Source: Arthrobacter burdickii (GTDB lineage Bacteria > Actinomycetota > Actinomycetes > Actinomycetales > Micrococcaceae). Taken from it: a stretch of DNA of 64,000 nucleotides. Positions 1,730 to 25,474 of this stretch are shown here, piece after piece. Location of the stretch: assembly GCF_030433645.1 (NCBI RefSeq), contig NZ_JAROCG010000001.1, forward strand, positions 1,302,001 through 1,366,000. Direction: 5' to 3'. A program made the position numbers and the translations under genes. Position 1 is the first letter of the stretch, and the number at the start of each line of letters is the position of its first letter. The notes below the pieces were generated by a model, which worked only from the letters and a program-made list of their open reading frames with translations, ran no database searches and had not been told where the DNA came from.

Positions 1730-1781
1730 ATTTCTTTCCGAGCCATCGAACAGACAACTTCCCACAGGAGACATGACTGCT

Positions 1782-3215
1782 ATGACAACCTCCACAGAGA
1801 CAACCGCACCAGCCACCTTCGAGGGCCTTCTCGCCGCGATCCAGCCGGCCGAGGGCGGCAGGGACATCAAGGATCCCGCTACCGGAGCTGTGGTCGGACG
1901 CGCCCCGGAACACGGAACGCCCGACCTCGAGGCTGCGATCGGAAAGGCGCGCGCTGCCCAGCCGGCCTGGGGCGATCTGTCCCACGACAAGCGGTCTGCG
2001 TACCTCAACCGGGCAGCTGATGCGGTCGAAGCATCCGCCGAAGCACTCGCGCAGCTGCTCTCCCGCGAGCAGGGCAAGCCATTGAACGGACCGAATGCAC
2101 GCTTCGAGGTCGGCGCCTGTGCGGCCTGGCTGCGGGCCACCGCATCCTTCGAGATGAAGCCCGAAGTGCTCGTGGATGATGATGGGGGCCGCGCGGAGCT
2201 GCACTACCGCCCGCTCGGTGTTGTGGGAGCTATCGGGCCCTGGAACTGGCCCATGATGATTACGATCTGGCAGATCGCTCCTGCCCTTCGGATGGGCAAC
2301 GCCGTCGTCGTCAAACCCTCGGGGATGACACCCTTGTCCGTGCTGGCGCTTGTTCACGTGCTCAACAAAGTCCTGCCCGCGGATGTCCTCCACGTCATCG
2401 CCGGCCGCCGGGACGTGGGCGCCGTGCTGGTAAGCCACCCCGACATCGCCAAGATCATGTTCACCGGGTCCACCGCCGCAGGTCAGGACATCATTCGGTC
2501 CTCGGCTGACACGGTCAAGCGCCTCACCCTCGAACTGGGCGGCAATGACGCCGGCATCGTCCTGCCTGACGCCAACCCGAAGGAGATCGCCGAGAACCTG
2601 TTCTGGGGTGCGTTCATCAACACCGGCCAGACCTGCGCCGCCCTCAAAAGGCTTTACGTCCACGAGGACATCTACGACGCGGTGTGTGAAGAGCTCACCA
2701 CGGTCGCCGCATCGATGCCCATGGGCGTGGGCCTGGATGAGAACAACGTTCTCGGTCCGCTGCAGAACAAGTCCCAGTACGACATCGTCGCCGGACTGGT
2801 CGAGTCCGCCCGCGATTCCGGGGCCACGGTGCTGCTCGGTGGCAACCCGGAGAAGGACCAGCCCGGCTATTTCTACCCGGCCACCCTCGTAGCCGATATC
2901 GACAATGACAATCCGCTGGTGACGGAGGAGCAGTTCGGACCGGCACTACCGATCATCAAGTACTCCAGTGTGGATGAGGCTGTCGCCATGGCGAACGGAC
3001 TCGATGTGGGGCTCGGCGCTTCCGTCTGGTCGTCCAATGTGGAGTCGGCACTCAAGGTCGCCGCCCGCATCGAGGCCGGCACTGTCTGGATCAACAAGCA
3101 CGGCACCGTGGACCCTCGGGTGCCCTTCGGAGGGGTCAAGACCTCGGGGTACGGCCTCGAATTCGGCGTCGAAGGCCTCAAGCACCTCGGAGCTCCCCAG
3201 GCCATCAGCTACTAG
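1782..3215 (+). CDS. NAD(P)-dependent aldehyde dehydrogenase (copy 1)
   Basis: ALDH-superfamily enzyme of 477 residues. It has the catalytic Glu in LTLELGGNDAG (E251) and the nucleophilic Cys in NTGQTCAALK (C285). It probably oxidises the aldehyde made by the amine oxidase just upstream. Two in-frame ATGs occur. The one at 1773 sits only 2 bases after AGGAG, while 1782 has a workable spacing and aligns with the MTT start of the sister gene at 36522, so 1782 is preferred. The two dehydrogenases are collinear throughout with long identical blocks, for example around the catalytic Glu and at SREQGKPLNGPNARFEVGA. This points to duplication within one lineage. A strong hairpin follows the stop. 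Confidence 0.88.
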   Translation: MTTSTETTAPATFEGLLAAIQPAEGGRDIKDPATGAVVGRAPEHGTPDLEAAIGKARAAQPAWGDLSHDKRSAYLNRAADAVEASAEALAQLLSREQGKPLNGPNARFEVGACAAWLRATASFEMKPEVLVDDDGGRAELHYRPLGVVGAIGPWNWPMMITIWQIAPALRMGNAVVVKPSGMTPLSVLALVHVLNKVLPADVLHVIAGRRDVGAVLVSHPDIAKIMFTGSTAAGQDIIRSSADTVKRLTLELGGNDAGIVLPDANPKEIAENLFWGAFINTGQTCAALKRLYVHEDIYDAVCEELTTVAASMPMGVGLDENNVLGPLQNKSQYDIVAGLVESARDSGATVLLGGNPEKDQPGYFYPATLVADIDNDNPLVTEEQFGPALPIIKYSSVDEAVAMANGLDVGLGASVWSSNVESALKVAARIEAGTVWINKHGTVDPRVPFGGVKTSGYGLEFGVEGLKHLGAPQAISY

Positions 3216-6105: not shown

Positions 6106-7509
6106 TCAGGAGATGTTGGGGGTAGCCGGTGTTTCGCTCGGCTTTACGGCGGTGTCCGTCGTCGAGCTGGTTCCTTCGGCGAGGATGAGCCGTGCCCGCT
6201 TCGTCATGGGCCCGAAGATCGCCAGTGCTACTGCGCCGACCATCCAGGTGCCGGCGATGAAGATGAAGACGCTTTCGTATCCTGTCCTGGTGTAGAGCGC
6301 GGCGATGATGAGGGGTCCGGCGGCGTTGGAGAGCCGTCCCAGCCCGTAGGAAACGCCGGTGCCCAGCGACCGTCCGCGGGTGTCGAAGAGCTCGGGGGAG
6401 TAAGCGTAGGCGAGTGCCGTGTAGCCGCGCTCGAACATGTTCACGAGGAAGCCGAACACGACGATGAGGATCGGGTTGAAGGTCAGTCCGTAGAGGAGCC
6501 CGCAGACGGCGATCAGCGTTCCGAAGACGACCAGGCACCATTTGCGCTCGAAACGGTCGGTGACCAGGGATGCGACGAATGAACCCAGGGGCGCCCCGAC
6601 GGTTGTCAGCGCCACGTAGAAGATGGACTTCTGGACGCTGAAGCCTTCCTGCGCGAGCAGGGTGGGCGCCCAGGATGAGTAGCCGAAAAACCCGATGGTC
6701 TGCGTCACCCACAGGATCGTGAGGAGGATCGTAGGGCCAAGGTATTTCTTCTGCAGCAGGATGCTCAGGGGTGCCTTCGGCTGCGGGCTGGTGACGACGG
6801 GGGCAGCTGGTGCGGACAACGTGCCCTTTTCTGCCTCGACGCCTGCCTCGATCTTCGCGAGGACGGCGTCTGCCTTGTCGTACTGGCCCTTGCTCTCGTA
6901 CCAGCGGGGGGACTCCTGAAGGTGCCGTGTGAAGAGGATGAACAGGATTCCGAGCGACCCCCAGAGGTAGACGAGGCGCCAGGACCAGTCGGTGAGGGGT
7001 ACGACGCCGGCTGCGATGAGGTTGGTGACGGGTGTTCCGCAGATGCCGATGACGATGGCGTAGGCCTGGTACTTGCCGCGCACGGCGGCAGGGAAGATCT
7101 CGTTGATGTAGACGACGGCGACGACGGTCATGGCGGCCAGTCCGGCGGAGGTCAGGACGCGGAAGACGCCGAGGGAGATGATGTCCCACGCGAACACGGC
7201 CGCGAAGGAGAAGAGGGCGAACCAGAGGGTGGTGATGGTGAGGGCGTTCTTCCTCCCCCACCTGTCGGCGATCCAGCTGGCTGCGATGGAGCCGAAGAAC
7301 ATGCCGACGAAGGACAGGGAGGTTACGTAGGCGATCTGGTTGATGGTGACGCCCCACAGTTCGACCAGTTTCGGTGCGGTGGTGGCGAAGCTGTTGATGT
7401 CCGCGAATTCGAAGAAGTACGCGAAGGAGACGGCGACGAGGGTGATCTTGTGGAAGCGGGAAATCGGAAGCCGGTCGAGCCGGTTGGCTGCATTGCTGTG
7501 CTGCTGCAT
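6106..7509 (-). CDS. MFS transporter, probable aromatic-acid importer
   Basis: A 467-residue major facilitator protein with about 12 hydrophobic helices and a large central cytoplasmic loop (about 215-255). The cytoplasmic motif ADRWGRKNA follows helix 2, with a related TDRFERKW in the second half. ISRFHKITLVAVSFAYFFE at the N-terminus, with an acidic residue in helix 1, resembles the sugar-porter/AAHS-like carriers used for aromatic acids. It is the last gene of the dioxygenase-ligU-J-K-I operon (30 bp after ligI), with an AAAGGG ribosome site. It probably takes up the operon's aromatic substrate or a pathway lactone by H+ symport. Substrate assignment is by context only. Confidence 0.8.
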   Translation of the reverse strand: MQQHSNAANRLDRLPISRFHKITLVAVSFAYFFEFADINSFATTAPKLVELWGVTINQIAYVTSLSFVGMFFGSIAASWIADRWGRKNALTITTLWFALFSFAAVFAWDIISLGVFRVLTSAGLAAMTVVAVVYINEIFPAAVRGKYQAYAIVIGICGTPVTNLIAAGVVPLTDWSWRLVYLWGSLGILFILFTRHLQESPRWYESKGQYDKADAVLAKIEAGVEAEKGTLSAPAAPVVTSPQPKAPLSILLQKKYLGPTILLTILWVTQTIGFFGYSSWAPTLLAQEGFSVQKSIFYVALTTVGAPLGSFVASLVTDRFERKWCLVVFGTLIAVCGLLYGLTFNPILIVVFGFLVNMFERGYTALAYAYSPELFDTRGRSLGTGVSYGLGRLSNAAGPLIIAALYTRTGYESVFIFIAGTWMVGAVALAIFGPMTKRARLILAEGTSSTTDTAVKPSETPATPNIS

Positions 7510-7539
7510 GGGGAGCCCTTTAAAGGTTGTGGGGGAGGC

Positions 7540-8460
7540 TCAGGCGACGTCGCCGGGCCAGTAGAGGCGGGTGGGGTTGTCGACGAGGAGCTTGTGCTGT
7601 TGGTCCGGGGTTTCTGCGATGAGGGGGATGTAGTCGACGAGGAGCCCGTCGTCGGGCATGTGGTCCTTCAGGTTCGGGTGAGGCCAATCCGTTCCCCAGA
7701 GCACGCGGTCCGGGAATTCTGCGATGACCCGACGTCCGAACGGAACGGCGTCCTGGTAGGGACGCAGTTCGCCGTTGAGGGCTGGAGGTCCTGTCAGGCT
7801 GAGGCGTTCCGGGCAGCTGACTTTCACCCAGACGTCGTTCTTGTCGGTGAAGCGGAGGAAGCGCGTGAAGTCGGGTCCGTCGACGGGCTGTGATGTGTCG
7901 GGTCGGCCCATGTGGTCCACGACCAGGGGTGTGGGCAGGGCGGCGAAGAAGGCCTCCAGTTCCTCGAGGTCGGCGCCTTCGAAGTAGATGACGATGTGCC
8001 ATCCGAGTGGGGCAATCTTGTGCGCGATGGTCCGCAGCTCGTCCTTCGGGGACGTGTTCACGAGACGCTTGAGGAAGTTGAAGCGCACTCCCCGGATGCC
8101 GGAATTGTGTAGCTGTACCAGCTCGTCGTGGGTGATATCGGGTCGGACGGTGGCGATACCGCGGGCCCGGCCGTTGGAAGCGTCGATTGCGTCGAGCATC
8201 GCGCTGTTGTCCGCGCCGTGGCAGGTCGCCTGGACGAGGACATTGCGGCTGATGCCGAGGTGATCGCGCAGGGCGAAGAGCTGATCTTTGCCGGCATCGC
8301 ACGGAGTGTATTTCCGCTCCGGGGCGAACGGGAAGGTCGCTCCTGGGCCGAAGACGTGGCAGTGCGTGTCGACGGTCCCCTGCGGGAGGGCGAATCGGGG
8401 CTTGGAGGGGTTGGGATACCAGTCCAGCCAGTCGGGGGTTTTCGTGAACTGCTCGGTCAT
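7540..8460 (-). CDS. ligI: 2-pyrone-4,6-dicarboxylate lactonase
   Basis: Amidohydrolase-superfamily protein of 306 residues matching LigI, which hydrolyses 2-pyrone-4,6-dicarboxylate (PDC) to 4-oxalomesaconate. Visible active-site elements are VDTHCHVFGP (H33, H35), arginines R123 and R126 in GIRGVRFNF, H183 in VDHMGRP and the catalytic Asp D258 in LWGTDWPHPN. The family is unusual among amidohydrolases in needing no metal. The ATG is preceded by AAAGGAG. Its presence means PDC is formed in this pathway, either directly by ring cleavage or by cyclisation of the cleavage product. Confidence 0.92.
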   Translation of the reverse strand: MTEQFTKTPDWLDWYPNPSKPRFALPQGTVDTHCHVFGPGATFPFAPERKYTPCDAGKDQLFALRDHLGISRNVLVQATCHGADNSAMLDAIDASNGRARGIATVRPDITHDELVQLHNSGIRGVRFNFLKRLVNTSPKDELRTIAHKIAPLGWHIVIYFEGADLEELEAFFAALPTPLVVDHMGRPDTSQPVDGPDFTRFLRFTDKNDVWVKVSCPERLSLTGPPALNGELRPYQDAVPFGRRVIAEFPDRVLWGTDWPHPNLKDHMPDDGLLVDYIPLIAETPDQQHKLLVDNPTRLYWPGDVA

Positions 8461-8492
8461 CGGTGCTCCTTTGCTCCTGGCCTGTGGGGGTC

Positions 8493-9176
8493 CTAGTCGA
8501 TGTAGCGCAGGCCGGCTGCTTCGAGCGGTTCGCGCATGGAGTAGATGTCGAGGCCGAGTTCTCCGGCGGCGAAGCGGACGCGTTTGGTCTCTTCGTTGTC
8601 CTCGCGTGTGCGTGCCGCTGCCGCGACTTCCGCCGCGCGGGCGGCGGGGACGACCACGACGCCGTCGACGTCGGCAATGACGACGTCACCGGGAGTGACC
8701 AGGGCATTGGCGCAGACTACGGGGATATTGACGGAGCCGAGGGTGGCCTTGACGGTGCCCTTGGAATTGATGGCACGGCTGAAGACCGGGAAGTTCATGT
8801 CCTGCAGTGTGGCGACGTCCCGGCATCCGCCGTCGATGACGAGACCGACGGCGCCTCGGGCGTGCAGGGAGGTGGCGAGCAGGTCCCCGAAGAAGCCGTC
8901 CTCGCTTTCGGTGGTGCAAGCCGCCACCAGCACGTCTCCGGGCTGGATCAGCTCTGCTGCCACGTGCATCATCCAGTTGTCCCCCGGCTGCAGGAGCACG
9001 GTGACTGCTGTGCCGCAGAGTTTCGCGCCCGGGAAGACGGGCCGGATGTAGGGGCGCATCAGGCCCAGGCGGCCCATGGCTTCGTGGATGGTGCTCACGC
9101 CGAAGGCGGACAGTGCTTCGACGTCGGTCGTGGCGGCTCGGGTGATGGTGCGGTGGACTACTCCGAGTTCCTGCAT
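8493..9176 (-). CDS. ligK: 4-carboxy-4-hydroxy-2-oxoadipate aldolase
   Basis: A 227-residue RraA-fold aldolase (LigK/GalC/HMG-CHA aldolase type) splitting 4-carboxy-4-hydroxy-2-oxoadipate into pyruvate and oxaloacetate; the family also decarboxylates oxaloacetate. The divalent-metal site is seen in GLVIDGGCRD (D115, R119, D120) with FFGDLLATS near residue 96. The frame is open to an ATG at 9206. That ATG has no ribosome site and lies in a 13-bp tandem duplication. The ATG at 9176 has AGGAG at good spacing and gives the usual family length, so it is chosen. Last enzymatic step of the pathway. Confidence 0.9.
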   Translation of the reverse strand: MQELGVVHRTITRAATTDVEALSAFGVSTIHEAMGRLGLMRPYIRPVFPGAKLCGTAVTVLLQPGDNWMMHVAAELIQPGDVLVAACTTESEDGFFGDLLATSLHARGAVGLVIDGGCRDVATLQDMNFPVFSRAINSKGTVKATLGSVNIPVVCANALVTPGDVVIADVDGVVVVPAARAAEVAAAARTREDNEETKRVRFAAGELGLDIYSMREPLEAAGLRYID

Positions 9177-9191
9177 GACAAGAGGGCTCCT

Positions 9192-9217
9192 ATAAGTCGT
9201 GGTCATAAGTCGTGGTC
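9192..9217. repeat. 13-bp tandem duplication at the ligJ/ligK junction
   Basis: ATAAGTCGTGGTC occurs twice head to tail (9192-9204 and 9205-9217). On the minus strand it covers the last two bases read of the ligJ stop region and the start of the short gap before ligK. It adds a spurious in-frame ATG for ligK. It looks like a recent slippage event. Confidence 0.9.
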
Positions 9218-10241
9218 AGCGGCCCTGCTGTTTGAGCAGGTCGTTCAGTCGGGGGTAGACGGTGCGCGCGTTGTGTTCCTGGATGGCTGCCAGGTCCACG
9301 TCGTCTAGCCCCGCGGAGTCGATGTAGCGTGCGGTGTCGTCGAAGTTGTGGCCCGTGCACGGGTCGACGTCGCGGACGGCGCCGATCATCTCGGAGGCGA
9401 AGAGGATGTTGCGGGTGGGGATGACGTCCAGCAGCAGGTCGATCCCTGGCTGGTGGTAGACGCAGGTGTCGAAGAAGACGTTGCCGAGGACATGCTCCTC
9501 GACCGGAGGCTTCTTCAGGGCCATGGCCAGTCCGCGGAAGCGGCCCCAGTGATAGGGGACGGCGCCGCCGCCGTGGGGGATGACCAGTTTCAGGGTGGGG
9601 AAGTCTGCGAAGAGGTCGCCCTGGATGAGCTGCATGAAGGCGGTGGTGTCCGCGTTCAGGTAGTGGGCGCCGGTGGTGTGGAAGGCGGGGTTGATGCTGG
9701 TGCTGACGTGCACCATGGCCGGAATGTCGTATTCGACCATCTTTTCGTAAATGGGGTACCAGGATCGGTCTGTCAGGGGTGGGGAGGTCCAGTGCCCGCC
9801 GGAGGGATCGGGGTTGAGGTTCAGCGCGACGGCGCCGTATTCCTCGACGCACCGGACGAGTTCGGGGATGCAGGTCGCGGGGTCTGCTCCGGGGGACTGG
9901 GGGAGCATGGCTGCGGGAACGAACCGTTCCGGGTAGAGCCGGCTGACGCGGTAGCACAGCTCGTTGCAGATCGCGGCCCATTCTGCCGAGGTCGTGAAGT
10001 CGCCCACGTGGTGCGCCATGAAGGACGCCCTGGGTGAGAAGACGGTGAGGTCGATACCGCGCTCGTCCATCAGGCGCAGCTGGTTCTGCTCGATGCTTTC
10101 CTGCAGGTCGCCGTCGGAAATCGCTAGGTCCGCGCGCGACGGAGCCAGCGACGGGTCCTCCAAGCCGGCAACCTGGCGGTCGCGCCATTGGCCGAGGGCC
10201 GCGGGGGCCGTCGTGTAATGCCCATGGATATCGATGATCAC
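9216..10241 (-). CDS. ligJ: 4-oxalomesaconate hydratase
   Basis: A 341-residue amidohydrolase-superfamily protein equal in length to Sphingobium LigJ. It hydrates the mesaconate-type intermediate to 4-carboxy-4-hydroxy-2-oxoadipate. The residues known as zinc ligands in LigJ are in register: H6 and H8 (DIHGH), H178 (AMVHVS) and E284 (FASEMIG), plus H223 in IPHGGGAVPYHWGR. The start is GTG and shares one base with the TAG of the tautomerase gene (TAGTG), preceded by AAAGGA, so translation is coupled. Acts just before the aldolase. Confidence 0.92.
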   Translation of the reverse strand: MIIDIHGHYTTAPAALGQWRDRQVAGLEDPSLAPSRADLAISDGDLQESIEQNQLRLMDERGIDLTVFSPRASFMAHHVGDFTTSAEWAAICNELCYRVSRLYPERFVPAAMLPQSPGADPATCIPELVRCVEEYGAVALNLNPDPSGGHWTSPPLTDRSWYPIYEKMVEYDIPAMVHVSTSINPAFHTTGAHYLNADTTAFMQLIQGDLFADFPTLKLVIPHGGGAVPYHWGRFRGLAMALKKPPVEEHVLGNVFFDTCVYHQPGIDLLLDVIPTRNILFASEMIGAVRDVDPCTGHNFDDTARYIDSAGLDDVDLAAIQEHNARTVYPRLNDLLKQQGR

Positions 10242-11449
10242 TACGAGTCCTTTCCAGCGGATGCGGAAGCTGCATCCGAGTCGTCGAGGTTCCAGTGGCG
10301 GCTCGGGATGAAGACATCCCCGGCCATGATGAGGCGGGCGGTCCGGACGAGGGCGGACTTTGTGACGTGCTGCGGATCGGCCGGTTCGAGGCCGAGTTCG
10401 ACACTGAATTCACCGGCGGGATGTTCCACCGAGACGGTGACCTCAGGACCATCCCCGACCTGGGCGACCCCGCGGGCCACCGTTCCGTCGATGATGCAGG
10501 CGGTGGCGACGGTTACCGCTGCCAGGACGCCGATCGATTCATGGCAGACATGCGGAATGAAGCTGCGGGTATGGATTGAACCGCCGTGCACGGGATCGGC
10601 GACAAGGGTCATTTTCGGGTAGTTCTTCAGTGCCACATCACCCAGACCCATGAGGTGACCGCTTGCGAGCCGCAGGGTTTCCAGCGTGTCCTTGAGCTCC
10701 TGGTTTGCGTTGAGATCGGCGGGAGTCTCGTACCCGGTGGCTCCGACTGCGTCCGCGCGGAGAATTACCAGCGGCATGCCGTTGTCGATGCACGTGACGT
10801 CGATGGTGCCGGTGCCATCGACGTCGATCGGGTCCCGGACGTTGCCTGTTGGTAGCAGGCCCGGAGCCACGGATCCTGCTGTGTCGAGGAAGTTGATGGC
10901 CACTGCGGCGGCGGTTCCCGGGACACCGTCGACCCTCGTGTCGCCCTCGTAGTCCACGTAGCGCCCGGCCGGTCCCATGGGAGTCGGAACGGTGATTTCC
11001 GCGACCATGTCCGTGTTGAGCGTCAGTACCCGTGCGGTCGTGGTGTCCGCAACGGGAGTGAGCAGCCCGGATTCGATGGCGAAGGGAACCACGGCTGCGA
11101 GCATGTTCCCGCAGTTCGGGCTGATGTCGACGACGTCACTGGCCGGTTGCAACTGCGCGAACAGGAACTCGAGGTCGACGCCCTCCCGCTCGCTTCGTCC
11201 GACGATGCCGGCCTTGCTGGTCAGCGAATGCGCCCCGCCCAGACCATCGATCTGCCGCGGATCAGGGGAACCCAGAACCGCCAGCAGGACAGTATCCCGC
11301 GTGGCCGGGTCGACCGGCATATCGGCAGTGCGGAAGAACGGGCCCCTGGAGGTTCCGCCCCGCATGAACCAACAGGGAATAGCAACCTGACTGCCGGCCC
11401 ACCGCGCTCCCACGGACAGGACTGCTGTGGCTGGTGCTGGGAAAGACAC
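10241..11449 (-). CDS. ligU: 4-oxalomesaconate tautomerase (PrpF family)
   Basis: A 402-residue PrpF-like isomerase of the diaminopimelate-epimerase fold, corresponding to GalD/LigU, which isomerises 4-oxalomesaconate to the substrate of the hydratase. Motifs: FMRGGTSRGPFF near the N-terminus, LGGAHSLTSKAGIV (K79) and SPNCGNML (C113); Lys and Cys in these positions are the catalytic pair in LigU-type enzymes. The frame runs upstream to 11626 inside the dioxygenase gene, but a GTG at 11449 with AAGGAG five bases before it is the convincing start and leaves a 23-bp gap. GalD and LigU differ in the double-bond isomer made; the sequence alone does not decide between them. Confidence 0.88.
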   Translation of the reverse strand: MSFPAPATAVLSVGARWAGSQVAIPCWFMRGGTSRGPFFRTADMPVDPATRDTVLLAVLGSPDPRQIDGLGGAHSLTSKAGIVGRSEREGVDLEFLFAQLQPASDVVDISPNCGNMLAAVVPFAIESGLLTPVADTTTARVLTLNTDMVAEITVPTPMGPAGRYVDYEGDTRVDGVPGTAAAVAINFLDTAGSVAPGLLPTGNVRDPIDVDGTGTIDVTCIDNGMPLVILRADAVGATGYETPADLNANQELKDTLETLRLASGHLMGLGDVALKNYPKMTLVADPVHGGSIHTRSFIPHVCHESIGVLAAVTVATACIIDGTVARGVAQVGDGPEVTVSVEHPAGEFSVELGLEPADPQHVTKSALVRTARLIMAGDVFIPSRHWNLDDSDAASASAGKDS

Positions 11450-11472
11450 GTCTTCTCCTTGCTCGGGGGGCT

Positions 11473-12435
11473 TCAGTGCGCGGGCACGGCTACGGGAGGT
11501 GTGCCGTGGGTGTGGAACGTCTCGATGGTCTTCATGCCCCAGGCCTGGCCCTTGGCACGGTCTGCTTCCGTCCACTCCACGGTTTTCCAGTCGGGCGCCA
11601 GAATCATCCGGGCTCCGGAGTTGCACAGTTCGATCCGGTTGCCGCCGGGTTCGTACACGTAGAGGAAGAAGGTCTGCTGGATGGCGTGCTTGTGCGGCCC
11701 GGATTCAATGTGGATGCCGTTTTCGAGGAAGATGTCCGCGGCTTTCAGGATGTCTTCGCGGGTGTCGGTCGCGAAGGCGATGTGGTGCAGGCGGCCGGTG
11801 CTGCCCGTCCAGTCCTCGCTGTAGACCAGGTCGTAGCTCTTGTTGTTGAAGGTGAACCACTGGGCGCCGAGCTTGCCGCTGTCGAGGCGGATCTGTTCGG
11901 TGGCGCGGCCTCCCAGGGTTGCTGATGTGAAATTCCCGTTGAGTGTGACGTCTGCGGCCAGGAAGTTCACGTGGTCCAGGCGGCGGGCGTTGACGCCGGT
12001 ACCGGGGAACCTGTCCGCCTGGTTCTTCAGCGCGGGCCGGGATTCGTCGGTGGGAACATGCCACTCGGACTCGTAGTAGATGTCCATGGGGTGACCGTCC
12101 GGGTCGGTGAAGGCGTAGGTGCGCCCTATGCCTGGTTCACCGTCGTACCATCCGATTCCGCGGCCACTGGCTTCGATGGCGGCTACCCGCCGCTCGAGTG
12201 CGGCGTCGCTCGAAGCACGCAGTGCCACCTTTCCCACGCCCGAGGTGGGACTGGCCGTCAGCTTGATGGTGTGGTGCTCGTAGTCGTCCCAGGCGTGCAG
12301 ATACGCGGAATCACCCACGCGCGCCACTTCCCGCATCGCAAGCAGCTCCGTGAAGAACCACAGGCTTTTCTCGAACTCCGGGGTCAGAAGTTCCACGTGG
12401 CCCACATGCGCCACGTCGTGGAAGGCATCGTTCAT
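11473..12435 (-). CDS. Type I (VOC-fold) extradiol ring-cleavage dioxygenase, probable gallate or related ring opener
   Basis: A 320-residue two-module VOC protein. The C-terminal module has the metal triad H155 (LDHVNF), H217-H218 (LHHIAF) and E269 (GNRIEL). Residues 250-269 fit the extradiol-dioxygenase signature, with H250 and LY at 258-259. It is first in the operon that continues with ligU-J-K-I and the MFS gene, so it should open the ring of the substrate feeding 4-oxalomesaconate/PDC. No semialdehyde dehydrogenase is present, so the cleavage product is probably already at acid level, as with gallate or 3-O-methylgallate. Enzymes known for those substrates are LigB-type, a different fold. 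The dioxygenase fold is certain; the substrate is inferred. Confidence 0.82.
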   Translation of the reverse strand: MNDAFHDVAHVGHVELLTPEFEKSLWFFTELLAMREVARVGDSAYLHAWDDYEHHTIKLTASPTSGVGKVALRASSDAALERRVAAIEASGRGIGWYDGEPGIGRTYAFTDPDGHPMDIYYESEWHVPTDESRPALKNQADRFPGTGVNARRLDHVNFLAADVTLNGNFTSATLGGRATEQIRLDSGKLGAQWFTFNNKSYDLVYSEDWTGSTGRLHHIAFATDTREDILKAADIFLENGIHIESGPHKHAIQQTFFLYVYEPGGNRIELCNSGARMILAPDWKTVEWTEADRAKGQAWGMKTIETFHTHGTPPVAVPAH

Positions 12436-12494: not shown

Positions 12495-12527
12495 GTGAAC
12501 CAGCTCACACGCAATATTGTCAACAAT
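12495..12527 (-). promoter_or_regulatory. Dioxygenase-operon promoter with GntR operator 1
   Basis: ATTGTCAACAAT (12516-12527) is an ATTGT-N2-ACAAT inverted repeat. On the minus strand it contains a perfect -35 TTGACA (12518-12523). A weaker -10 candidate, TTCACT, lies 18 bases on, ending near 12494. The operator therefore overlaps RNA-polymerase contacts, and repression by the neighbouring GntR protein is the simple reading. Confidence 0.6.
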
Positions 12528-12586: not shown

Positions 12587-12619
12587 ATTGTTGACAATAA
12601 TGGTGGCAGGACATAGCTT
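12587..12619 (+). promoter_or_regulatory. ABC-importer promoter with GntR operator 2
   Basis: ATTGTTGACAAT (12587-12598) is the mirror form of operator 1 and embeds a -35 TTGACA (12591-12596). A -10 TAGCTT (TANNNT) follows at 12614-12619 with a 17-base spacer. The importer genes start at 12666. The dioxygenase operon and importer operon are thus controlled by two matching, oppositely oriented operator-promoters. Confidence 0.65.
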
Positions 12620-12665
12620 GATCGTGTCGTAGTGACCCGCACCACACCTACTCAGAGGATTGACA

Positions 12666-13634
12666 ATGAAGTCGTACCCCGCCGTCATGGCCGTCACCGC
12701 ACTCCTTCTCACCGGCTGCTCGTCGGCGCCCCTGGCTCAGGGGGCGGCTTCTGCTGAGGCTGAAGCCGGCGCCGGCGAGCAGATCCAGGTGGGCATCATT
12801 CCCATCGTGGACGTCGCCCCCATCTACCTCGGCCAGGAGCAGGGATTCTTCGAGGACGAAGGGCTGTCCCTGGAGCTGGTTCCCGCGCAGGGCGGAGCTG
12901 CGATCGTCCCCGCCGTCACGAGCGGCACGATGGATTTCGGGTTCAGCAACGTATCGTCGATGCTGCTGGCCAAGTCGAAGGGACTCGATGTCAAGGTCGT
13001 GGCCTCCGGTGCCAGCTCCACGGGCGAAGAGGGCAAGGACTTCGGCGGCATTTTGGTGGCCAAGGACAGCCCGATCACGTCGGCTGCGGATCTGGCGGGC
13101 AAGACCGTTGCCGTCAACACTCTGAACAACATCAACGACACCACGGTGCGGGCATCCGTCCGCAAGGCCGGAGGTGACCCGTCCACCATCAAGTTCGTGG
13201 AACTGGCCTTCCCTGACATGCAGGCGGCACTCGAGCGGGGCCAGGTGGACGCGATCCAGGTCGTCGAGCCGTTCCTCACCACGGGAACGGGCGCCGGCGA
13301 CACGCTTCTTGCCTCGAACTACGTCGACGCGGCGGACGGCCTCACTGTCGGCGCCTACTTCACCACCGCGGCCACCGTCTCCGACAACCCCGAACTCGTG
13401 GAGAAGTTCACCGCCGCCATGGAGAAGTCCCTGACCTACGCGCAGGACAACCCCGACGCGGTCCGCGAGATCCTGCCGACCTACACCAAGATCGATGCCG
13501 CCACCGCGGAGAAGCTGGTCCTGCCCGACTTCGCCAGCGAGATCAACCGCGCGTCCGTCGAAGAGCTGGTGACGCTGTCCAAGGATGACGGGCTGCTGAC
13601 CGAAGACGTGAACCTCGATGAGCTGCTTCCATGA
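12666..13634 (+). CDS. ABC transporter substrate-binding lipoprotein (NitT/TauT type)
   Basis: A 322-residue solute-binding protein of the NMT1/SsuA class. The signal peptide ends in lipobox LLTGC with modified C18. The mature protein begins IQVGIIPIVDVAPIYLGQEQG, a typical start of this fold, and has AALERGQVDAIQVVEPF in the hinge region. ATG at 12666 has AGAGGA six bases upstream; a TTG six bases earlier is not needed. Relatives import sulfonates, nitrate, pyrimidines and aromatic carboxylates such as phthalate. Divergence from the dioxygenase operon with a shared operator suggests it captures gallate or a similar aromatic acid. Confidence 0.85.
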   Translation: MKSYPAVMAVTALLLTGCSSAPLAQGAASAEAEAGAGEQIQVGIIPIVDVAPIYLGQEQGFFEDEGLSLELVPAQGGAAIVPAVTSGTMDFGFSNVSSMLLAKSKGLDVKVVASGASSTGEEGKDFGGILVAKDSPITSAADLAGKTVAVNTLNNINDTTVRASVRKAGGDPSTIKFVELAFPDMQAALERGQVDAIQVVEPFLTTGTGAGDTLLASNYVDAADGLTVGAYFTTAATVSDNPELVEKFTAAMEKSLTYAQDNPDAVREILPTYTKIDAATAEKLVLPDFASEINRASVEELVTLSKDDGLLTEDVNLDELLP

Positions 13635-14398
13635 CCAAACGAACCCTCGGGCTTGCGGGCATCCTCGGATTCCTCCTCACCTGGGAGCTGATCCCACGGC
13701 TGGGACTCGTTGAGGCGCGCTTCCTGCCACCGGCCTCGGAGGTGCTGGCTGCGCTTGCCGTGGACTTCCAGCTGACTGCCTTCTGGGCGGCGGTGGGGGA
13801 GACCCTGCTGGCCTGGGTTCTGGGACTGGCTGCCGCCGTACTGTTGGCGGTGGCCGCAGGATTCGTGGTGGGTTCCTCGCAGTTCCTACGGCGGTTCACC
13901 AACTCGACCGTCGAATTCCTCCGACCCATACCGTCCGTCGCGCTGATCCCCCTGGCCGTCCTGTTGTTCGGGGTGAAGATCGAATCCTCGCTGATGCTCA
14001 TCATCTATGCATCGTTCTGGCAGATCTTCATCCAGGTGCTCTACGGAGTGGCCGACGTCGACAACGTCGCCATGCAGACGGCCCGGAGCTTCGGGCTCAA
14101 GACCGTGGCGCGTGTGCGATACGTCGTCTTCCCGACGGCACTGCCCTACCTGATGACCGGGGTCCGGCTGGCCGCGTCGGTCGCCTTGATCCTCGCCATC
14201 ACGGCAGAGCTTGTCATCGGTTCTCCCGGACTCGGCCGGGAAATCGCACTGGCACAATCCGGCGGGGCGATCTCCGGGATGTACGCCCTGATCGTGGCCA
14301 CCGGCCTGATCGGCGTTCTGATCAACCTGCTGATGAGGTTCATCGAGCGCAAGACCCTCTCCTGGCACTCCTCCATCCGTTCCGAGGTGATCGTATGA
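13631..14398 (+). CDS. ABC transporter permease 1 (SsuC/TauC type)
   Basis: A 255-residue integral membrane permease with about six helices and an EAA-type cytoplasmic loop (QTARSFGLKTVARVRYVVFP, near 152-171). It overlaps the binding-protein gene by ATGA, so it is translationally coupled. With the next permease and the ATPase it forms the importer; having two different permeases is less usual than the SsuC homodimer and implies a heterodimeric channel. Confidence 0.85.
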   Translation: MTKRTLGLAGILGFLLTWELIPRLGLVEARFLPPASEVLAALAVDFQLTAFWAAVGETLLAWVLGLAAAVLLAVAAGFVVGSSQFLRRFTNSTVEFLRPIPSVALIPLAVLLFGVKIESSLMLIIYASFWQIFIQVLYGVADVDNVAMQTARSFGLKTVARVRYVVFPTALPYLMTGVRLAASVALILAITAELVIGSPGLGREIALAQSGGAISGMYALIVATGLIGVLINLLMRFIERKTLSWHSSIRSEVIV

Positions 14399-15168
14399 GA
14401 ATCGCGAAAAGCTTCCTGTATGTCCTGGGGCTGCCGGCGCTGCTCGTCCTGATCTGGTGGCTATCCACGCTCGGCGCGACAAGCTTCTTCGTCCCCACGC
14501 CGGGCACTCTTGCCTCCACCTTCGGCAAGACATGGTTCGGCGACCGGATCTTCACCGACGTGCTCCCCAGTATCCTGCGGCTCCTTGCCGGCGTTTCGGC
14601 GGCGATCATCCTCGGCATCCTTGCCGGGCTACTGATCGGGTCGATCCCGTGGCTCCGGGCATTGACCGAACCGGTGCTCGAATTCTTCCGGGCCGTTCCG
14701 CCACCGGTCCTCGTGCCCGTACTGATGCTGCTGATGGGCATTTCCGATTCCATGAAGGTAGTAGTCATCATTTCCGGCTGCATCTGGCCGGTGCTGCTGA
14801 ACACGATCGAGGGTGTCCGGGCGATCGACGGCGTACTCTCCGACTCCGCCCACACCTACGGCATCGGCGGATGGGCCCGGGTCCGGTACCTGGTCCTACC
14901 ATCGGCCGGGCCGCAGATCCTCGCCGGGGTGCGCCAGTGCCTCTCCATCGGCCTCATCCTGATGGTCATCTCCGAAATGTTCGCGTCCTCATCCGGACTC
15001 GGCTTCACCATCGTCCAGTTCCAGCGTTCATTTGCCGTGCCGGAAATGTGGTCCGGCATCGTGATCCTCGGCCTGATCGGCGTTGCCATGTCCTTCATCT
15101 TCCAATTCACCGAGCGCCGCATCCTGCGCTGGTACTACGGCCTGCGAGAGGTAGAAAATGCAGTCTGA
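14395..15168 (+). CDS. ABC transporter permease 2 (SsuC/TauC type)
   Basis: A 257-residue permease of the same family as the preceding gene, overlapping it by ATGA. The EAA-like loop is DSAHTYGIGGWARVRYLVLP (near 157-176), followed by AGPQILAGVRQCLS. It probably pairs with permease 1 to form the membrane channel of the putative aromatic-acid importer. Confidence 0.85.
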   Translation: MRIAKSFLYVLGLPALLVLIWWLSTLGATSFFVPTPGTLASTFGKTWFGDRIFTDVLPSILRLLAGVSAAIILGILAGLLIGSIPWLRALTEPVLEFFRAVPPPVLVPVLMLLMGISDSMKVVVIISGCIWPVLLNTIEGVRAIDGVLSDSAHTYGIGGWARVRYLVLPSAGPQILAGVRQCLSIGLILMVISEMFASSSGLGFTIVQFQRSFAVPEMWSGIVILGLIGVAMSFIFQFTERRILRWYYGLREVENAV

Positions 15169-16039
15169 CATCAATCAGAACCCGGACCTGGCTGGGAGCC
15201 CCGGTGCAGCAACCGGAGCCGGCCGCACCATGACCGGTGGAAAGGCCATGCTCTCGGTCCAGGGCCTCAAGAAGGTCTACCAAACCGACGGCGGCCCGGT
15301 GGAAGCCGTACGCAACCTGACCTTCGACCTGCGCGCCGGGGAACTCGCCTGCCTGGTCGGACCGTCCGGGTCCGGCAAGACAACCCTGTTGAAGTGCATC
15401 TCGGGACTCATGGCACCCACCGAGGGCGAGGTACTGCTCGACGGCACCAAAGTCACCGGCCCTCCCAAGAAGATGGCTGTGGTATTCCAGGAGTACGGCC
15501 GCTCACTATTTCCCTGGATGCGGGTCCGCGAGAACGTCGAACTCCCTCTCAAGAACCAGGGCATGCCTAAGGAGGAGCGGGACCGCCTGGTCGATGAGGC
15601 ACTGGAGGCCGTCGGCCTGTCCCACGTCCCCCTGTCCTACCCCTGGCAGCTTTCGGGCGGCATGCAACAGCGCGTCGCGATCGCCCGGGCCGTCGCCTAC
15701 CAGCCCGAAGTGCTGCTGATGGACGAGCCCTTTGCGGCCGTCGATGCCCAGACCCGTGCGGATCTGGAGGACCTGATCCGTACTGTCTGGAAGAAGCTCG
15801 GCGTCACCGTCCTCTTCGTCACCCATGACATCGACGAATCGGTGTACCTGGGCGAAAGGGTGATCATCCTGTCCAGTTCGCCCACAGTCGTGCAGGAAGA
15901 CCTCATCATCGACCTCCCGGCGGAGAGGGACCAACTCAACACGCGAGCCCTCTCGCGCTTCACGGAACTGCGGCACCACGTCTACGAGCAGATTCAGCTC
16001 GCTAAGACCGGACACCGTCCTGCCTCGGCGTCGCACTGA
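15158..16039 (+). CDS. ABC transporter ATP-binding protein (SsuB/TauB type)
   Basis: A 293-residue ATPase. Walker A is GPSGSGKTT, the signature is QLSGGMQQR, Walker B is LLMDEPFAAVD, the switch His is in FVTHDIDES and the Q-loop is VVFQEYGRSLFPW. About 30 variable residues precede the domain; an internal ATG (MLSVQGL) is an alternative start. Overlaps the permease gene by 11 bp. Energises the four-gene importer; the gntR gene follows about 100 bp later. Confidence 0.88.
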   Translation: MQSDINQNPDLAGSPGAATGAGRTMTGGKAMLSVQGLKKVYQTDGGPVEAVRNLTFDLRAGELACLVGPSGSGKTTLLKCISGLMAPTEGEVLLDGTKVTGPPKKMAVVFQEYGRSLFPWMRVRENVELPLKNQGMPKEERDRLVDEALEAVGLSHVPLSYPWQLSGGMQQRVAIARAVAYQPEVLLMDEPFAAVDAQTRADLEDLIRTVWKKLGVTVLFVTHDIDESVYLGERVIILSSSPTVVQEDLIIDLPAERDQLNTRALSRFTELRHHVYEQIQLAKTGHRPASASH

Positions 16040-16097
16040 CTCCGTGTACTTCGAGGCGGAAGGGGCCGAAGCAGTGTGGAGTACCCTGAGGAAGCAA

Positions 16098-16109
16098 ATT
16101 GTTAGCAAT
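16098..16109 (+). promoter_or_regulatory. GntR operator 3, upstream of its own gene
   Basis: ATTGTTAGCAAT differs by one base from the ATTGT-N2-ACAAT pattern of operators 1 and 2. It ends 34 bases before the GTG chosen as gntR start, so autoregulation is likely. Confidence 0.55.
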
Positions 16110-16143
16110 GCCGGCTGAGAACGCCGGCCGGGAGGCATCACGC

Positions 16144-16803
16144 GTGGAAACCCTGGACGAATCACTTGGCCGCAGCGTGACGGCGACCGAACTGGCCGAC
16201 CTGCTGCGCACCGCTATCGTGACCGGGGAGCTGGTGCCAAACCAGCGACTAGTCGAAGCCGACCTCGCGGCGGAATATGGTGCGAGTCGCGGGAACATCC
16301 GGGTGGCATTGTCCGAGTTGAGTGTCGAGGGCCTCGTGGAGCGGGTACAGAACCGGGGGGCGAGGGTACGTGCCGTTTCCGTGGACGAAGCCGTCGAAAT
16401 CACCGAGGTCCGAGCGGCGTTGGAAGCACTCTGCGCTAGGAAGGCCGCTGAACGCATCACGGACAAGGAAATCGCCGAACTGCAGCAGCTCGCGGAGCGC
16501 ATGACAGACGCCGTGGAGCGCGGCGACCGGGAATCCTACTCCGAGAACAATCAAAAGCTGCATGCCCGGATCATCGCCATCAGCGCGCAGCAGACAGCGG
16601 CCGCGACGATCCAGCGACTTCGAGGACAGGCCGTACGCTTCCAGTTCCGACTGGCCCGGCAGCCTGGCAGGCCAGCAGTGTCACTTCCGCAACACCTGGC
16701 GATCATCACCGCCGTCTGCGCACACGACCCTGATGCAGCCGCCCAGGCAATGCGCGTCCACCTCGAAAGCGTCGCCGACGTCATCCGATCCAGCAACCCC
16801 TGA
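16144..16803 (+). CDS. GntR-family (FCD) regulator of the gallate-type island
   Basis: A 219-residue regulator. The N-terminal winged helix includes LVEADLAAEYGASRGNIRVALSELSVEGLV in two consecutive helices (about 36-65), and a C-terminal FCD ligand domain follows. The frame is open to 16099, but that part covers the operator-like palindrome. GTG 16144 has GGGAGG eight bases before it and gives a normal FCD length. Probably an aromatic-acid-responsive repressor acting at the ATTGT-N2-ACAAT sites near 12.5, 16.1 and 17.0 kb. Confidence 0.85.
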   Translation: METLDESLGRSVTATELADLLRTAIVTGELVPNQRLVEADLAAEYGASRGNIRVALSELSVEGLVERVQNRGARVRAVSVDEAVEITEVRAALEALCARKAAERITDKEIAELQQLAERMTDAVERGDRESYSENNQKLHARIIAISAQQTAAATIQRLRGQAVRFQFRLARQPGRPAVSLPQHLAIITAVCAHDPDAAAQAMRVHLESVADVIRSSNP

Positions 16804-16852
16804 AGCGCTCCTGCCTCGTCCCGAACCAGGCGTAGCGCCACGAGCCGTTTTC

Positions 16853-16892
16853 ATCCCCAAAGGCAGGCCTGCCGGGGGTGGAAGCGGTTTTT
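16853..16892 (+). terminator. Candidate terminator after gntR
   Basis: CCCC (16855-16858) and GGGG (16874 on) flank the perfect palindrome GGCAGGCCTGCC (16862-16873). A run of five T follows at 16888-16892. Reasonable intrinsic terminator about 50 bp after the gntR stop. Confidence 0.45.
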
Positions 16893-16996
16893 CGTTCCCC
16901 TGAGGCGGGGGTTGTGCTGCGCCACGGTCCCGGAAACGGGTCCCTCTCTCGTGCCCGATGGAGCCGCAATTCTCGTTAGCAAGAAAGCCTTTACAA

Positions 16997-17008
16997 ATCG
17001 TTAACAAT
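16997..17008 (+). promoter_or_regulatory. GntR operator 4, upstream of the tannase gene
   Basis: ATCGTTAACAAT matches ATTGT-N2-ACAAT with one change. A weaker relative, CTCGTTAGCAAG, lies about 25 bp upstream (16972-16983). They are 70-107 bp before the tannase start. This places the secreted esterase in the same regulon as the dioxygenase and importer operons. Confidence 0.5.
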
Positions 17009-17078
17009 ATCGATAACGTTCAGCGTGTCATCGCCGCGAACGGTAGCCACGCCGGTCCGCTGACTCAAAGGAGAGCCG

Positions 17079-18905
17079 ATGCATTTCTTATGGTCCAGAA
17101 CCAAAAAGTCCCTGCCGAACAAGAACCTCGCGCTGCAAACAAAGCTGATAGCTGGCCTGTGTATCGCCACAATCGCCAGTACCGCCCTGCTCCCCGCGGC
17201 CCAAGCCGGGAGCGTCCCGGCCGCCCCTGCCGCAAAGCCGGCGGTCACCGCCGAAGGCCTCCTCGACCTACCCGCCCTGACCCCTGTGATGTCCTGCACG
17301 GATCTGGTCGGCTTCGACTTCAGCTCTGCGGCCGGTTCACCCGTAACAATCACTTCGGCCGCCGTCGTCACCGCCGGGGTGCCCGCACCCTACTGCGAAG
17401 TCACCGGCACCATCGCTCCGGCGAACACCATCATCGTCCGGTTGCCCACCGAAGGGTGGACGCAACGGTACGTCCAGACCGGCTGCGGTGGGCTCTGCGG
17501 CAGAGCATCCATCAACATCGGCCAGGCCGCCGGTTGCTCCATCGTGGAAGACGGAACGGTGGCGACCGCCACCACCGACATGGGCCACCAGGGCCAGAAC
17601 GACGGCTCGTGGGCAGTGAACAACCCGCAGGCACAGATCGACTTCGCCTACCGGGGCGTGCACGTCACAGCGTTGACCGCCAAGGCACTAATCGCGAAGT
17701 TCTACGGCCAGCAGCCCGCCTTCTCCTACTTCACGGGTTGCTCCGACGGCGGCCGCGAGGGACTGATGGAAGCCCAGCGCTTCCCTGATGACTTCGACGG
17801 CATTGCCGCCGGCGCTCCCGCCAACAACATGGCCCTGCAGAATACTTACCACCACGCGTGGAACGTCCTGACCAACGAGGACGAGAACGGCAACTACATC
17901 CTGCTGTCAGGGAAACTGCCGCTGATCCACAGCGCTGTGCTGGGCGCGTGCGACGGCCTGGACGGGCTGACTGATGGAGTCCTCGATGATCCACGGGCCT
18001 GCGACTTCGACCCCGCGTCGCTCATCTGCGCTACCGGGCAGGACGCCAACACCTGCCTGTCCGCGGAAGAGGCAGCCGTGGTCCAGCGCCTGCACGACGG
18101 AGCGGTGGATGAACAAGGCCACCAACTCGAGCTTGAGATCTCCCACGAGTGGGGCTCGGAGCTGGCATGGACCCTGTTCGTACCTGCAACCCAGCGCCAG
18201 ACAGTCCCGAGCGAGAACTTCGCCCTGTCCTACCTCCGGTACCTCGCCGAGCCCAACAGCCCCCGGCCGGACTTCCAGCTCTCGGATCTCGAGTTCACCA
18301 AGAAAGCCTTCTGGGACACGATGGAGTCTTCGAGCTACATGTCAGCCCTTGACCCCGACCTTCAGGATTACGAGGAGAGCGGCGGCAAGCTCCTGCTCTG
18401 GCACGGCTGGAATGACCAGCACATCTCCCCGCAATCCACGCTGGCCTACTACGACGCCGTGCGTCAGGCGATGGGAGCCAAGACGGCCGACAGCTTCAGC
18501 AAGCTCTTCCTCTTCCCAGGAGTGGAGCACTGCAGCGGCGGAGCCGGACCGAACACCTTCGACGTCCTCACCCCGGTGATGGCATGGGTGGAAAGCGGTA
18601 AGACGCCGACCGTCATCGTCGCCTCGAAGACGGTCACGGCGGAGGGTTCCACCGCACCCATCACACGACCGGTCTACCCGTACCCGGCGGTGGCCCGGTA
18701 TGACGGGAGTGGCAGCACGTCCGACGCCTTCAACTTCGTCCCCTACACGCCGGCGAAGGACGAAGGTCCCGGATACAACTGGGTGGGCAAGAAGCTCTAC
18801 TCGTCCGATTACCAGACATGGTGCACGGCGAATGGAACACAGCTCTCCTGCAAGCCCCAGAAGGGGCGAGAGACCTGGCTCACCAAACTGGCTCAACGGG
18901 CTTAG
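17079..18905 (+). CDS. Secreted tannase/feruloyl-esterase family hydrolase
   Basis: A 608-residue exported esterase of the tannase family. A long signal peptide (helix about 23-40) is predicted to be cut after A43. The nucleophile is S222 in TGCSDGG, the acid D446 in HGWNDQH and the base H484 in VEHCSGG. The Cys neighbours C221 and C485 form the CS-D-HC disulfide arrangement typical of tannase and feruloyl esterases. An Asp-rich segment DGLDGLTDGVLDDP (292-305) looks like the family's calcium site. It would cleave gallate or hydroxycinnamate esters outside the cell. AAGGAG precedes the ATG. The dioxygenase pathway nearby favours gallate esters (tannins). Confidence 0.88.
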   Translation: MHFLWSRTKKSLPNKNLALQTKLIAGLCIATIASTALLPAAQAGSVPAAPAAKPAVTAEGLLDLPALTPVMSCTDLVGFDFSSAAGSPVTITSAAVVTAGVPAPYCEVTGTIAPANTIIVRLPTEGWTQRYVQTGCGGLCGRASINIGQAAGCSIVEDGTVATATTDMGHQGQNDGSWAVNNPQAQIDFAYRGVHVTALTAKALIAKFYGQQPAFSYFTGCSDGGREGLMEAQRFPDDFDGIAAGAPANNMALQNTYHHAWNVLTNEDENGNYILLSGKLPLIHSAVLGACDGLDGLTDGVLDDPRACDFDPASLICATGQDANTCLSAEEAAVVQRLHDGAVDEQGHQLELEISHEWGSELAWTLFVPATQRQTVPSENFALSYLRYLAEPNSPRPDFQLSDLEFTKKAFWDTMESSSYMSALDPDLQDYEESGGKLLLWHGWNDQHISPQSTLAYYDAVRQAMGAKTADSFSKLFLFPGVEHCSGGAGPNTFDVLTPVMAWVESGKTPTVIVASKTVTAEGSTAPITRPVYPYPAVARYDGSGSTSDAFNFVPYTPAKDEGPGYNWVGKKLYSSDYQTWCTANGTQLSCKPQKGRETWLTKLAQRA

Positions 18906-21066: not shown

Positions 21067-21082
21067 GGGAGTCCTTGAAGAG

Positions 21083-21898
21083 TCAGTAGCTGACGGGGGA
21101 GGTGCCGTCAGCGGAATCGACGGCGGGAGGGATGAAGGCGGCGGCGAGGGCTTCGGATCCGCGGGCGAGCAGGGCGACGTCGGCGCCGACGAGGACGAAG
21201 GATGCCCCGTGATCGAGGTAGTGGCGCGCGGTGTCGGCGTTGAAGGCATTCACACCGGCCGGTTTTCCTGCGCGTACTGCAGCCACAAGGCACCGTTCGA
21301 CGGCGGCCCGGACGTCGGGGTGTTCCTGCTGTCCGAGCAGGCCCATGGACGCCGCGAGGTCGGAGGGCCCGACGAAGATCGCATCCACCCCGTCGACCGC
21401 GAGGATGTCCTCAACCGCATCCACGGCTGTCGCCGATTCGATCTGGACCGTCAGGCTGATCGTCGTCGACGCGCGGGCCAAATAGTCCGGGACCCTGTTC
21501 CAGCGGGCGGCACGGGCCAGTGCCGACCCCACGCCGCGGACACCCTCGGGCGGATAACGCGTGGCAGCCACGGCGGCTTCCGCATCTGCCACGGTGTTGA
21601 CCATCGGGATGAGCAGGTTCTGGATTCCGAGGTCGAGGTACTGCTTGATGAGGACCGTGTCGTTGACCGGCGGCCGGACGAGCGTCTGCACGGGGTAGCC
21701 GGAGATGGCCTGGAGCTGGGCGAGGATCGATTCGAGCCCGTTGGGGCTGTGCTCGGCGTCGACGAGCAGCCAGTCCAATCCCGATCCGGCGCAGATCTCG
21801 GCGACGAGCGCACTGCCGGAGCACACCCACATGCCGGCCAGCGGACGGTCTGCGGCAGCCAGTGCCTCGGCGAAGGTGGGTCCTAGACGAAGCGGCAT
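21083..21898 (-). CDS. hpaI: 4-hydroxy-2-oxoheptane-1,7-dioate aldolase
   Basis: A 271-residue class II aldolase of the HpcH/HpaI family cleaving 4-hydroxy-2-oxoheptanedioate to pyruvate and succinate semialdehyde. Active-site blocks: LLVDAEHSPNG (base His), QIESATAVDAVE (metal Glu) and DAIFVGPSDLAASMG (metal Asp). The ATG at 21898 has GGGAG upstream and overlaps the end of hpaH by 16 bp in another frame; the longer frame to 21955 is unlikely. The next gene, gabD, takes the semialdehyde. Confidence 0.92.
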   Translation of the reverse strand: MPLRLGPTFAEALAAADRPLAGMWVCSGSALVAEICAGSGLDWLLVDAEHSPNGLESILAQLQAISGYPVQTLVRPPVNDTVLIKQYLDLGIQNLLIPMVNTVADAEAAVAATRYPPEGVRGVGSALARAARWNRVPDYLARASTTISLTVQIESATAVDAVEDILAVDGVDAIFVGPSDLAASMGLLGQQEHPDVRAAVERCLVAAVRAGKPAGVNAFNADTARHYLDHGASFVLVGADVALLARGSEALAAAFIPPAVDSADGTSPVSY

Positions 21899-25436: not shown

Positions 25437-25474
25437 CGTTGATTCCTTACTGCTCGGGTGATTCGAGGCGTGTG

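Follow-up and report, generated by a model that had tools for sequence, protein, structure and literature searches.

Gallate is a building block of plant tannins, being the common unit of the hydrolysable ones, and it is also released by S-lignin breakdown. When gallate is opened by extradiol cleavage between C4 and C5, as in the chemistry of GalA (gal cluster of Pseudomonas putida KT2440) and DesB (Sphingobium SYK-6), a carboxylate is left on both sides of the break and 4-oxalomesaconate (OMA) is obtained in one step. In this work, we analysed a stretch of 64,000 nucleotides from Arthrobacter burdickii (contig NZ_JAROCG010000001.1, positions 1,302,001 to 1,366,000; hereafter the window), in which a gene for a VOC-family extradiol dioxygenase heads an operon of OMA-processing genes. 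On the basis of sequence comparisons, the VOC protein likely takes gallate as its main substrate and opens it directly to OMA. It would hold the same place in the pathway as GalA and DesB, with the same predicted reaction and the same downstream enzymes, but it belongs to another superfamily (VOC instead of LigB, PF02900).

A similar plan with another enzyme is found in Burkholderia multivorans (locus L107), where a gene annotated as 'gallate dioxygenase' is accompanied by an MFS carrier, LigJ, LigK and a tannase-family gene. The protocatechuate 4,5-cleavage operon (pcm) of Arthrobacter keyseri pRE1 encodes LigJ, LigK and LigI proteins 68-74% identical to those of the window; it includes a LigB-type dioxygenase and an oxidoreductase of the Gfo/Idh/MocA type (LigC), whereas the window genome has neither.

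Gallate dioxygenases are placed under LigB in AromaDeg (2014), and gallate is not named among VOC substrates in the accessible portion of that source (PMC4250580). The first-pass annotation of the window had taken all known gallate- and protocatechuate-cleaving enzymes as LigB-fold, in agreement with AromaDeg; this support does not reach the later work of 2021 on Rhodococcus opacus PD630, whose gallate cluster was described by Cai et al. 2021 (Sci Adv), according to PMC9942251. No recognisable report of a VOC-type physiological gallate dioxygenase was found in the open-licence literature, a scope that excludes the R. opacus PD630 study, so an earlier identification in that strain is possible. 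Activity on gallate is described for two other enzymes: with a Bacillus catechol 2,3-dioxygenase, the phenol signal of gallic acid fell by 14% in 6 h, which amounts to a weak side activity (PMC9925492), and a Pseudarthrobacter type II protocatechuate 4,5-dioxygenase also accepts gallate, at 44% (PMC8431788).

The operon and its VOC dioxygenase

All six genes of the operon proposed in the first-pass annotation were recovered on the minus strand. The operon is tight and runs from 12435 to 6106 in the order VOC dioxygenase, LigU, LigJ, LigK, LigI and MFS carrier, with intergenic gaps (5' to 3') of 23, -1, 9, 32 and 30 bp; the 23-bp gap between the VOC and LigU genes presumes that the LigU start codon is the GTG at 11449, chosen for the AAGGAG just before it.

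11473..12435, minus strand: VOC-family (type I) extradiol dioxygenase, predicted gallate dioxygenase (PF00903; metal ligands His155, His218 and Glu269; Tyr201)
10241..11449, minus strand: LigU/GalD, OMA tautomerase of the PrpF family (NF033377, 491 bits for a cut-off of 440; 6p3j, 352 bits)
9216..10241, minus strand: LigJ, OMA hydratase of the amidohydrolase family (solved OMA hydratases 2gwg, 584 bits, and 6dxq, 473 bits)
8493..9206, minus strand: LigK/GalC, 4-carboxy-4-hydroxy-2-oxoadipate (CHA) aldolase (TIGR02798, 390 bits for a cut-off of 304.5)
7540..8460, minus strand: LigI, 2-pyrone-4,6-dicarboxylate (PDC) hydrolase (solved PDC hydrolase 4d8l, 372 bits)
6106..7509, minus strand: MFS carrier, nearest to the aromatic acid/H+ symport type (PF07690; TIGR00895, 209 bits, under the cut-off of 418.55)

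The trio of the gal pathway, i.e. OMA tautomerase, OMA hydratase and CHA aldolase, is present as LigU, LigJ and LigK, judging from profile and structure-sequence matches. In the mechanism we propose, the active-site metal of the VOC enzyme would hold the 3- and 4-hydroxyls of gallate while the C4-C5 bond breaks, LigU, LigJ and LigK would turn the resulting OMA into pyruvate and oxaloacetate, and LigI would salvage PDC arising from 3-O-methylgallate or through lactonisation. Since gallate carries a hydroxyl at C5, the product of cleavage is already a tricarboxylate and a semialdehyde dehydrogenase is unnecessary. The gene set matches gallate because protocatechuate needs such a dehydrogenase, not found here, and because catechol gives LigU, LigJ and LigK no substrate.

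The genome around the window amounts to 3.95 Mb in 8 contigs, with a listed completeness of 100%. A profile search of the whole genome gave no LigB-fold (PF02900) match (the control set was positive in 4/14 genomes), so that LigAB protocatechuate dioxygenase was not found anywhere in it. Likewise, no orthologue of A. keyseri LigC was found genome-wide, the best match being a distant Gfo/Idh relative (33% over residues 10-234, 66.7 bits); as a yardstick, LigC genes lying beside LigI and LigB-type dioxygenases in three other loci (L106, L113 and L114) are 98, 68 and 66% identical to the same query. An oxidoreductase that recurs near VOC genes in relatives has no orthologue in the window genome either (query from Arthrobacter sp. 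zg-Y844, best match 27.7 bits). A semialdehyde dehydrogenase encoded elsewhere in the genome was rejected as a candidate, the LigC and zg-Y844 queries having no orthologue there. The absence of LigAB/DesB and LigC, noticed at first at the locus, thereby extends to the genome, and a LigB-type or LigC gene elsewhere, which the first-pass annotation had named as evidence that would count against it, was looked for and not found. From their neighbours, the aldehyde dehydrogenases at 1773-3215 and 23895-25436 would belong to amine and homoprotocatechuate routes, respectively.

The VOC protein matched PF00903 (glyoxalase-fold repeats), which places it among type I extradiol dioxygenases, and gave no match to the LigB domain PF02900. 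Residues were counted over 455 rows, i.e. 331 from the VOC clade and 124 from catechol-type relatives taken as outgroup, proteins of at least 360 residues and locus segments of at most 250 residues being left out. The 2-His-1-Glu triad (His155, His218, Glu269) is invariant in all of them. In contrast, position 201 is Tyr in 331/331 clade proteins and a second-sphere His in 124/124 catechol-type relatives, and 20 further positions separate the two groups. Basic residues special to the clade (Lys199, Arg226, His248, Arg276, Arg293 and His308) are, at a guess, candidates to hold the substrate carboxylate.

In homoprotocatechuate 2,3-dioxygenase (HPCD), His200 has an acid-base role that is typical of type I enzymes, and we do not take it as defining them. 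HPCD/MndD share the VOC fold and the metal triad with the VOC protein, and the alignment puts Tyr201 at the position of HPCD His200, at an unchanged distance from a conserved Trp. It further pairs HPCD Arg243 and Arg292/293 with Ser245 and Lys295/Gly296 of the VOC protein. The catechol 2,3-dioxygenases of the AphC/TIGR03211 group (3lm4, 7q2a) are 35% identical to the VOC protein and have His in place of Tyr201; the basic residues of the clade and the adjoining OMA genes also set the VOC protein apart from them. Its score with TIGR03211, the catechol 2,3-dioxygenase equivalog, is 318.6 bits, narrowly under the cut-off of 320.2.

The closest solved sequence is PDB 9wgj (deposited as 'Catechol 1,2-dioxygenase'; 388.7 bits), compared here by sequence only: it has equivalents of Lys199, Tyr201, Arg293 and His308, and in the alignment none of Arg226, His248 and Arg276. 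A literature search for this code found no paper carrying it, and 9wgj was not among the fold-search matches (library to April 2026). Among the relatives fetched, the nearest is an Arthrobacter agilis protein (98% identical). Out of 8,000 candidates scored, 7,432 relatives were retained at E up to 1e-60, Tyr and non-Tyr types together, many of them being labelled 'catechol 2,3-dioxygenase' in source records.

Recurrence of the gene set across genomes

The gene neighbourhood was surveyed for 80 relatives with 64-98% identity to the VOC protein, all taken from genome records, genes being counted within each available stretch. LigU was found in 77/80 loci (at most 200 bp from the VOC match in 71 of them), LigK in 75/80 (weakly in L028) and an OMA hydratase in 67/80, namely GalB in 53 and LigJ in 14; LigK, LigU and a hydratase occur together in 66/80. 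LigI was found in only 10 of the 80 loci and an aldehyde dehydrogenase match in only one. That two unrelated hydratases serve as partners, mostly without LigI, is consistent with a dioxygenase that yields OMA directly. The linkage of the VOC gene to OMA-processing genes holds in Actinomycetota and in Alphaproteobacteria.

The exchange between dioxygenase types was followed in a single sample of the class (296 genomes), the VOC gene being counted at E up to 1e-60. It is present in 15/296 genomes and lies 44-150 bp from the OMA tautomerase gene in 14 of these; the fifteenth (G294) has no tautomerase match. A LigB-type gallate dioxygenase (GalA) scoring above 600 bits was found in 2/296 genomes, where 125 and 135 bp separate it from the tautomerase; the VOC genomes have no such match (0/15). 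Conversely, a strong tautomerase was found in 22 genomes of the class (21 over the cut-off and one at 437.7 bits), 14 with the VOC gene and 2 with GalA. The genus of R. wratislaviensis was sampled with 28 genomes: two encode the close VOC type (73%) and four only distant VOC proteins (36-39%), while a LigB-type match (45% over the first 287 residues) was found in one and weak ones (76-82 bits) in four more.

With moderate confidence, we propose that gallate cleavage evolved twice, and that the second solution is an ancient VOC clade with a natural His-to-Tyr second-sphere exchange. This clade would span Actinomycetota, Pseudomonadota and Deinococcota, would be mislabelled 'catechol 2,3-dioxygenase', and would be a main bacterial gallate opener, outnumbering the LigB type in Actinomycetes. 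The VOC tree comprises 87 rows drawn by hand and was built with a quick method, with SH-aLRT support only. If this proposal is true, many proteins named catechol 2,3-dioxygenase need a new name, models of tannin and lignin breakdown by soil and plant-associated bacteria gain a missing step, and the operon offers a clean case of non-homologous enzyme replacement within an otherwise conserved gene set. The Tyr exchange would additionally provide a way to ask whether the third hydroxyl of the substrate takes over the work of a catalytic residue.

Tannase, shared palindrome and choice of substrate

The range 6106..12435 delimited in the first-pass annotation covers the operon and omits a divergent ABC importer, a GntR gene and a tannase gene (12660-18905), all relevant to the substrate.

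12660..13634, plus strand: ABC importer substrate-binding protein, NMT1/SsuA-like (PF09084; TIGR01728, 128.5 bits, below the cut-off)
13631-14398 and 14395-15168, plus strand: two ABC permease genes (open reading frames; tblastn matches beside the VOC gene in relatives)
15158..16039, plus strand: ABC importer ATPase (SaoA/TauB-like, below the cut-offs)
16099..16803, plus strand: GntR-family (FCD) regulator, predicted to bind the palindrome (PF07729 and PF00392; GntR match in 65/80 relatives)
17079..18905, plus strand: tannase/feruloyl-esterase family hydrolase, predicted to release gallate (PF07519, 383 bits; signal-peptide-like start, by eye)
12516..12527, no strand: palindrome ATTGTCAACAAT, predicted operator 1, in the divergent promoter region (exact match)
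12587..12598, no strand: palindrome ATTGTTGACAAT, predicted operator 2 (exact match)
16098..16109, no strand: one-mismatch palindrome where the GntR gene starts (motif search)
16997..17008, no strand: one-mismatch palindrome that precedes the tannase gene (motif search)

Such palindromes are often bound by GntR-FCD regulators. The palindrome ATTGTNNACAAT has 4 matches with at most one mismatch in the window, for 0.28 expected, and the two exact ones lie between the operon and the importer. In the loci of the 80 relatives, 100 exact matches are distributed over 67/80, compared with none in any of three first-order Markov simulations, and a copy lies at most 400 bp upstream of a pathway gene in 60/80. 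None of the copies in these 80 loci was assigned to a tannase gene. In the window, the copy before the tannase gene ties the tannase, and hence gallate, to the operon. A secreted tannase would free gallate, which would be taken up by the MFS carrier and/or the ABC importer, and the GntR protein would control the gene set via ATTGTNNACAAT. The window tannase is 56% identical to the tannase-family gene of the LigB-type gallate cluster L107. Tannase matches were found in 6/80 loci, at 63-91% identity in L001, L003, L018 and L050 and at 36-39% in L047 and L054. Promoter and terminator scans gave no more matches than chance.

Several observations weigh against gallate as the substrate or against a clean exchange of enzymes. 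The palindrome of the tannase gene is imperfect (one mismatch), and PF07519 also spans feruloyl and terephthalate-ester esterases, the kinds to which the solved relatives belong. One of the 15 VOC genomes (G210) has a LigB-type match (251 bits) on another contig, and 6 of the 22 strong-tautomerase genomes have neither the VOC gene nor GalA beside the tautomerase: in two (G045, G287) a LigB-type gene lies at a distance of about 3 kb, and four (G136, G200, G250, G252) have neither type nearby. Among 22 genomes tested behind fetched loci, a LigB-fold (PF02900) protein of some kind is encoded in 16 (best match 216.6 bits) and absent from only 6; two Roseomonas plasmids carry a LigB-type gene one gene away from the VOC gene. 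The stretches of Pantoea sp. At-9b and Chimaeribacter are devoid of any pathway gene, and in P. piersonii (L095) the only one is a LigU gene about 6 kb from the VOC gene. Finally, an NAD(P)-dependent oxidoreductase is present in the VOC neighbourhood of 50/80 loci, and genes for an aldehyde dehydrogenase and for a 4-hydroxybenzoate 3-monooxygenase are close to that of a Thermus oshimai relative (56% identical), which has both Tyr201 and the clade signature.

Because the Thermus oshimai relative shares it, the signature cannot by itself tell gallate from protocatechuate as the substrate; Tyr201 was accordingly rejected as a marker of gallate alone, as Thermus-type relatives have it too. The Thermus oshimai locus (L092, 5348-14930) possibly encodes a type I protocatechuate 4,5-dioxygenase, and its context suggests that part of the wider VOC clade acts on protocatechuate. 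Applied to the window, the same idea gives the alternative that survives best, itself unlikely: the VOC enzyme would act as a type I dioxygenase that cleaves protocatechuate at the 4,5 position, and a dehydrogenase encoded elsewhere would oxidise the semialdehyde to PDC for the LigI of the operon. Along with LigI, the Thermus context and the frequent neighbourhood oxidoreductase favour it, but the window genome has no orthologue of that oxidoreductase or of LigC, LigI and aldehyde dehydrogenase are rare in the 80 loci, and the palindrome stands at a tannase gene and not at that of a benzoate hydroxylase. Moreover, protocatechuate is already served by an intradiol pair, i.e. two adjacent PF00775 matches in the genome that are probably pcaGH (protocatechuate 3,4-dioxygenase), another route for this compound.

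LigI would also suit 3-O-methylgallate (from syringate) as the main substrate, opened to PDC or to the OMA methyl ester before LigI acts, and DesZ and LigAB of Sphingobium cleave this compound. We regard this as very unlikely: LigI is found in 10/80 loci against 66/80 for LigU, LigK and a hydratase, the adjoining tannase points to gallate, and no O-demethylase was recognised among the open reading frames of the cluster, the rest of the genome not having been searched for one. That an ordinary catechol 2,3-dioxygenase lies beside the lig genes by chance, as the near-cut-off TIGR03211 score and the database names of many relatives might suggest, is hardly credible given the recurrence of OMA genes next to the VOC gene and the 21 positions, Tyr201 included, that distinguish the clade from catechol-type relatives. 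The proposal of the first-pass annotation, direct opening of a trihydroxylated ring to OMA by a type I dioxygenase, appears as the best fit, supported by the genome-wide absence of LigB-fold and LigC genes, the linkage to OMA genes and the palindrome at the tannase gene.

Plasmid copies and neighbouring aromatic catabolism

Among the 19 plasmid regions fetched, 16 belong to the Tyr-type clade, 9 of these having LigK, LigU and a hydratase and 7 lacking the full trio, while the 3 distant outgroup regions of the His type have no LigK, LigU or hydratase. Incomplete sets include a Methylobacterium region of the Tyr type (LigJ and LigK only) and the Thermus oshimai region L092 (PIG-L hydratase and LigK only). 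In a walnut Agrobacterium, the pAt plasmid (L081) carries PIG-L, VOC, LigK, LigU and tannase genes one after another. Agrobacterium accounts for 23/83 plasmid records with a VOC relative; three of its plasmids (L081, L087 and L091; walnut, grapevine and rose) are conjugative by typing and have OMA genes nearby, one with a tannase directly behind. In Chimaeribacter and Pantoea plasmids (L083, L085, L095), Tyr-type VOC genes stand amid transporters or regulators, with no adjoining OMA genes.

The neighbourhood oxidoreductase resembles 6-phosphogluconate dehydrogenase, with the DUF1932 type in some loci (e.g. L004, 8103-8849), and has a palindrome of the operon type upstream in 10 loci. It was also seen in L081, L082, L086, L087, L088, L090, L092, L095, L096 and L098.

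Two further VOC relatives are encoded in the window genome (36% and 29% identical to the VOC protein). An HPCD-like gene distinct from the VOC gene, with 29% identity, lies at 22761-23840 of the window. The homoprotocatechuate cluster (19552-27668) includes a 504-residue open reading frame (26154-27668, minus strand) whose translation has the appearance of a fusion between an HpaG-type fumarylacetoacetate hydrolase and an RraA-like aldolase. It is followed, at 38435-51070, by phenylacetate (paa)-like and related CoA-ester open reading frames, as judged from translations, which gives this part of the genome the aspect of an aromatic-catabolism island.

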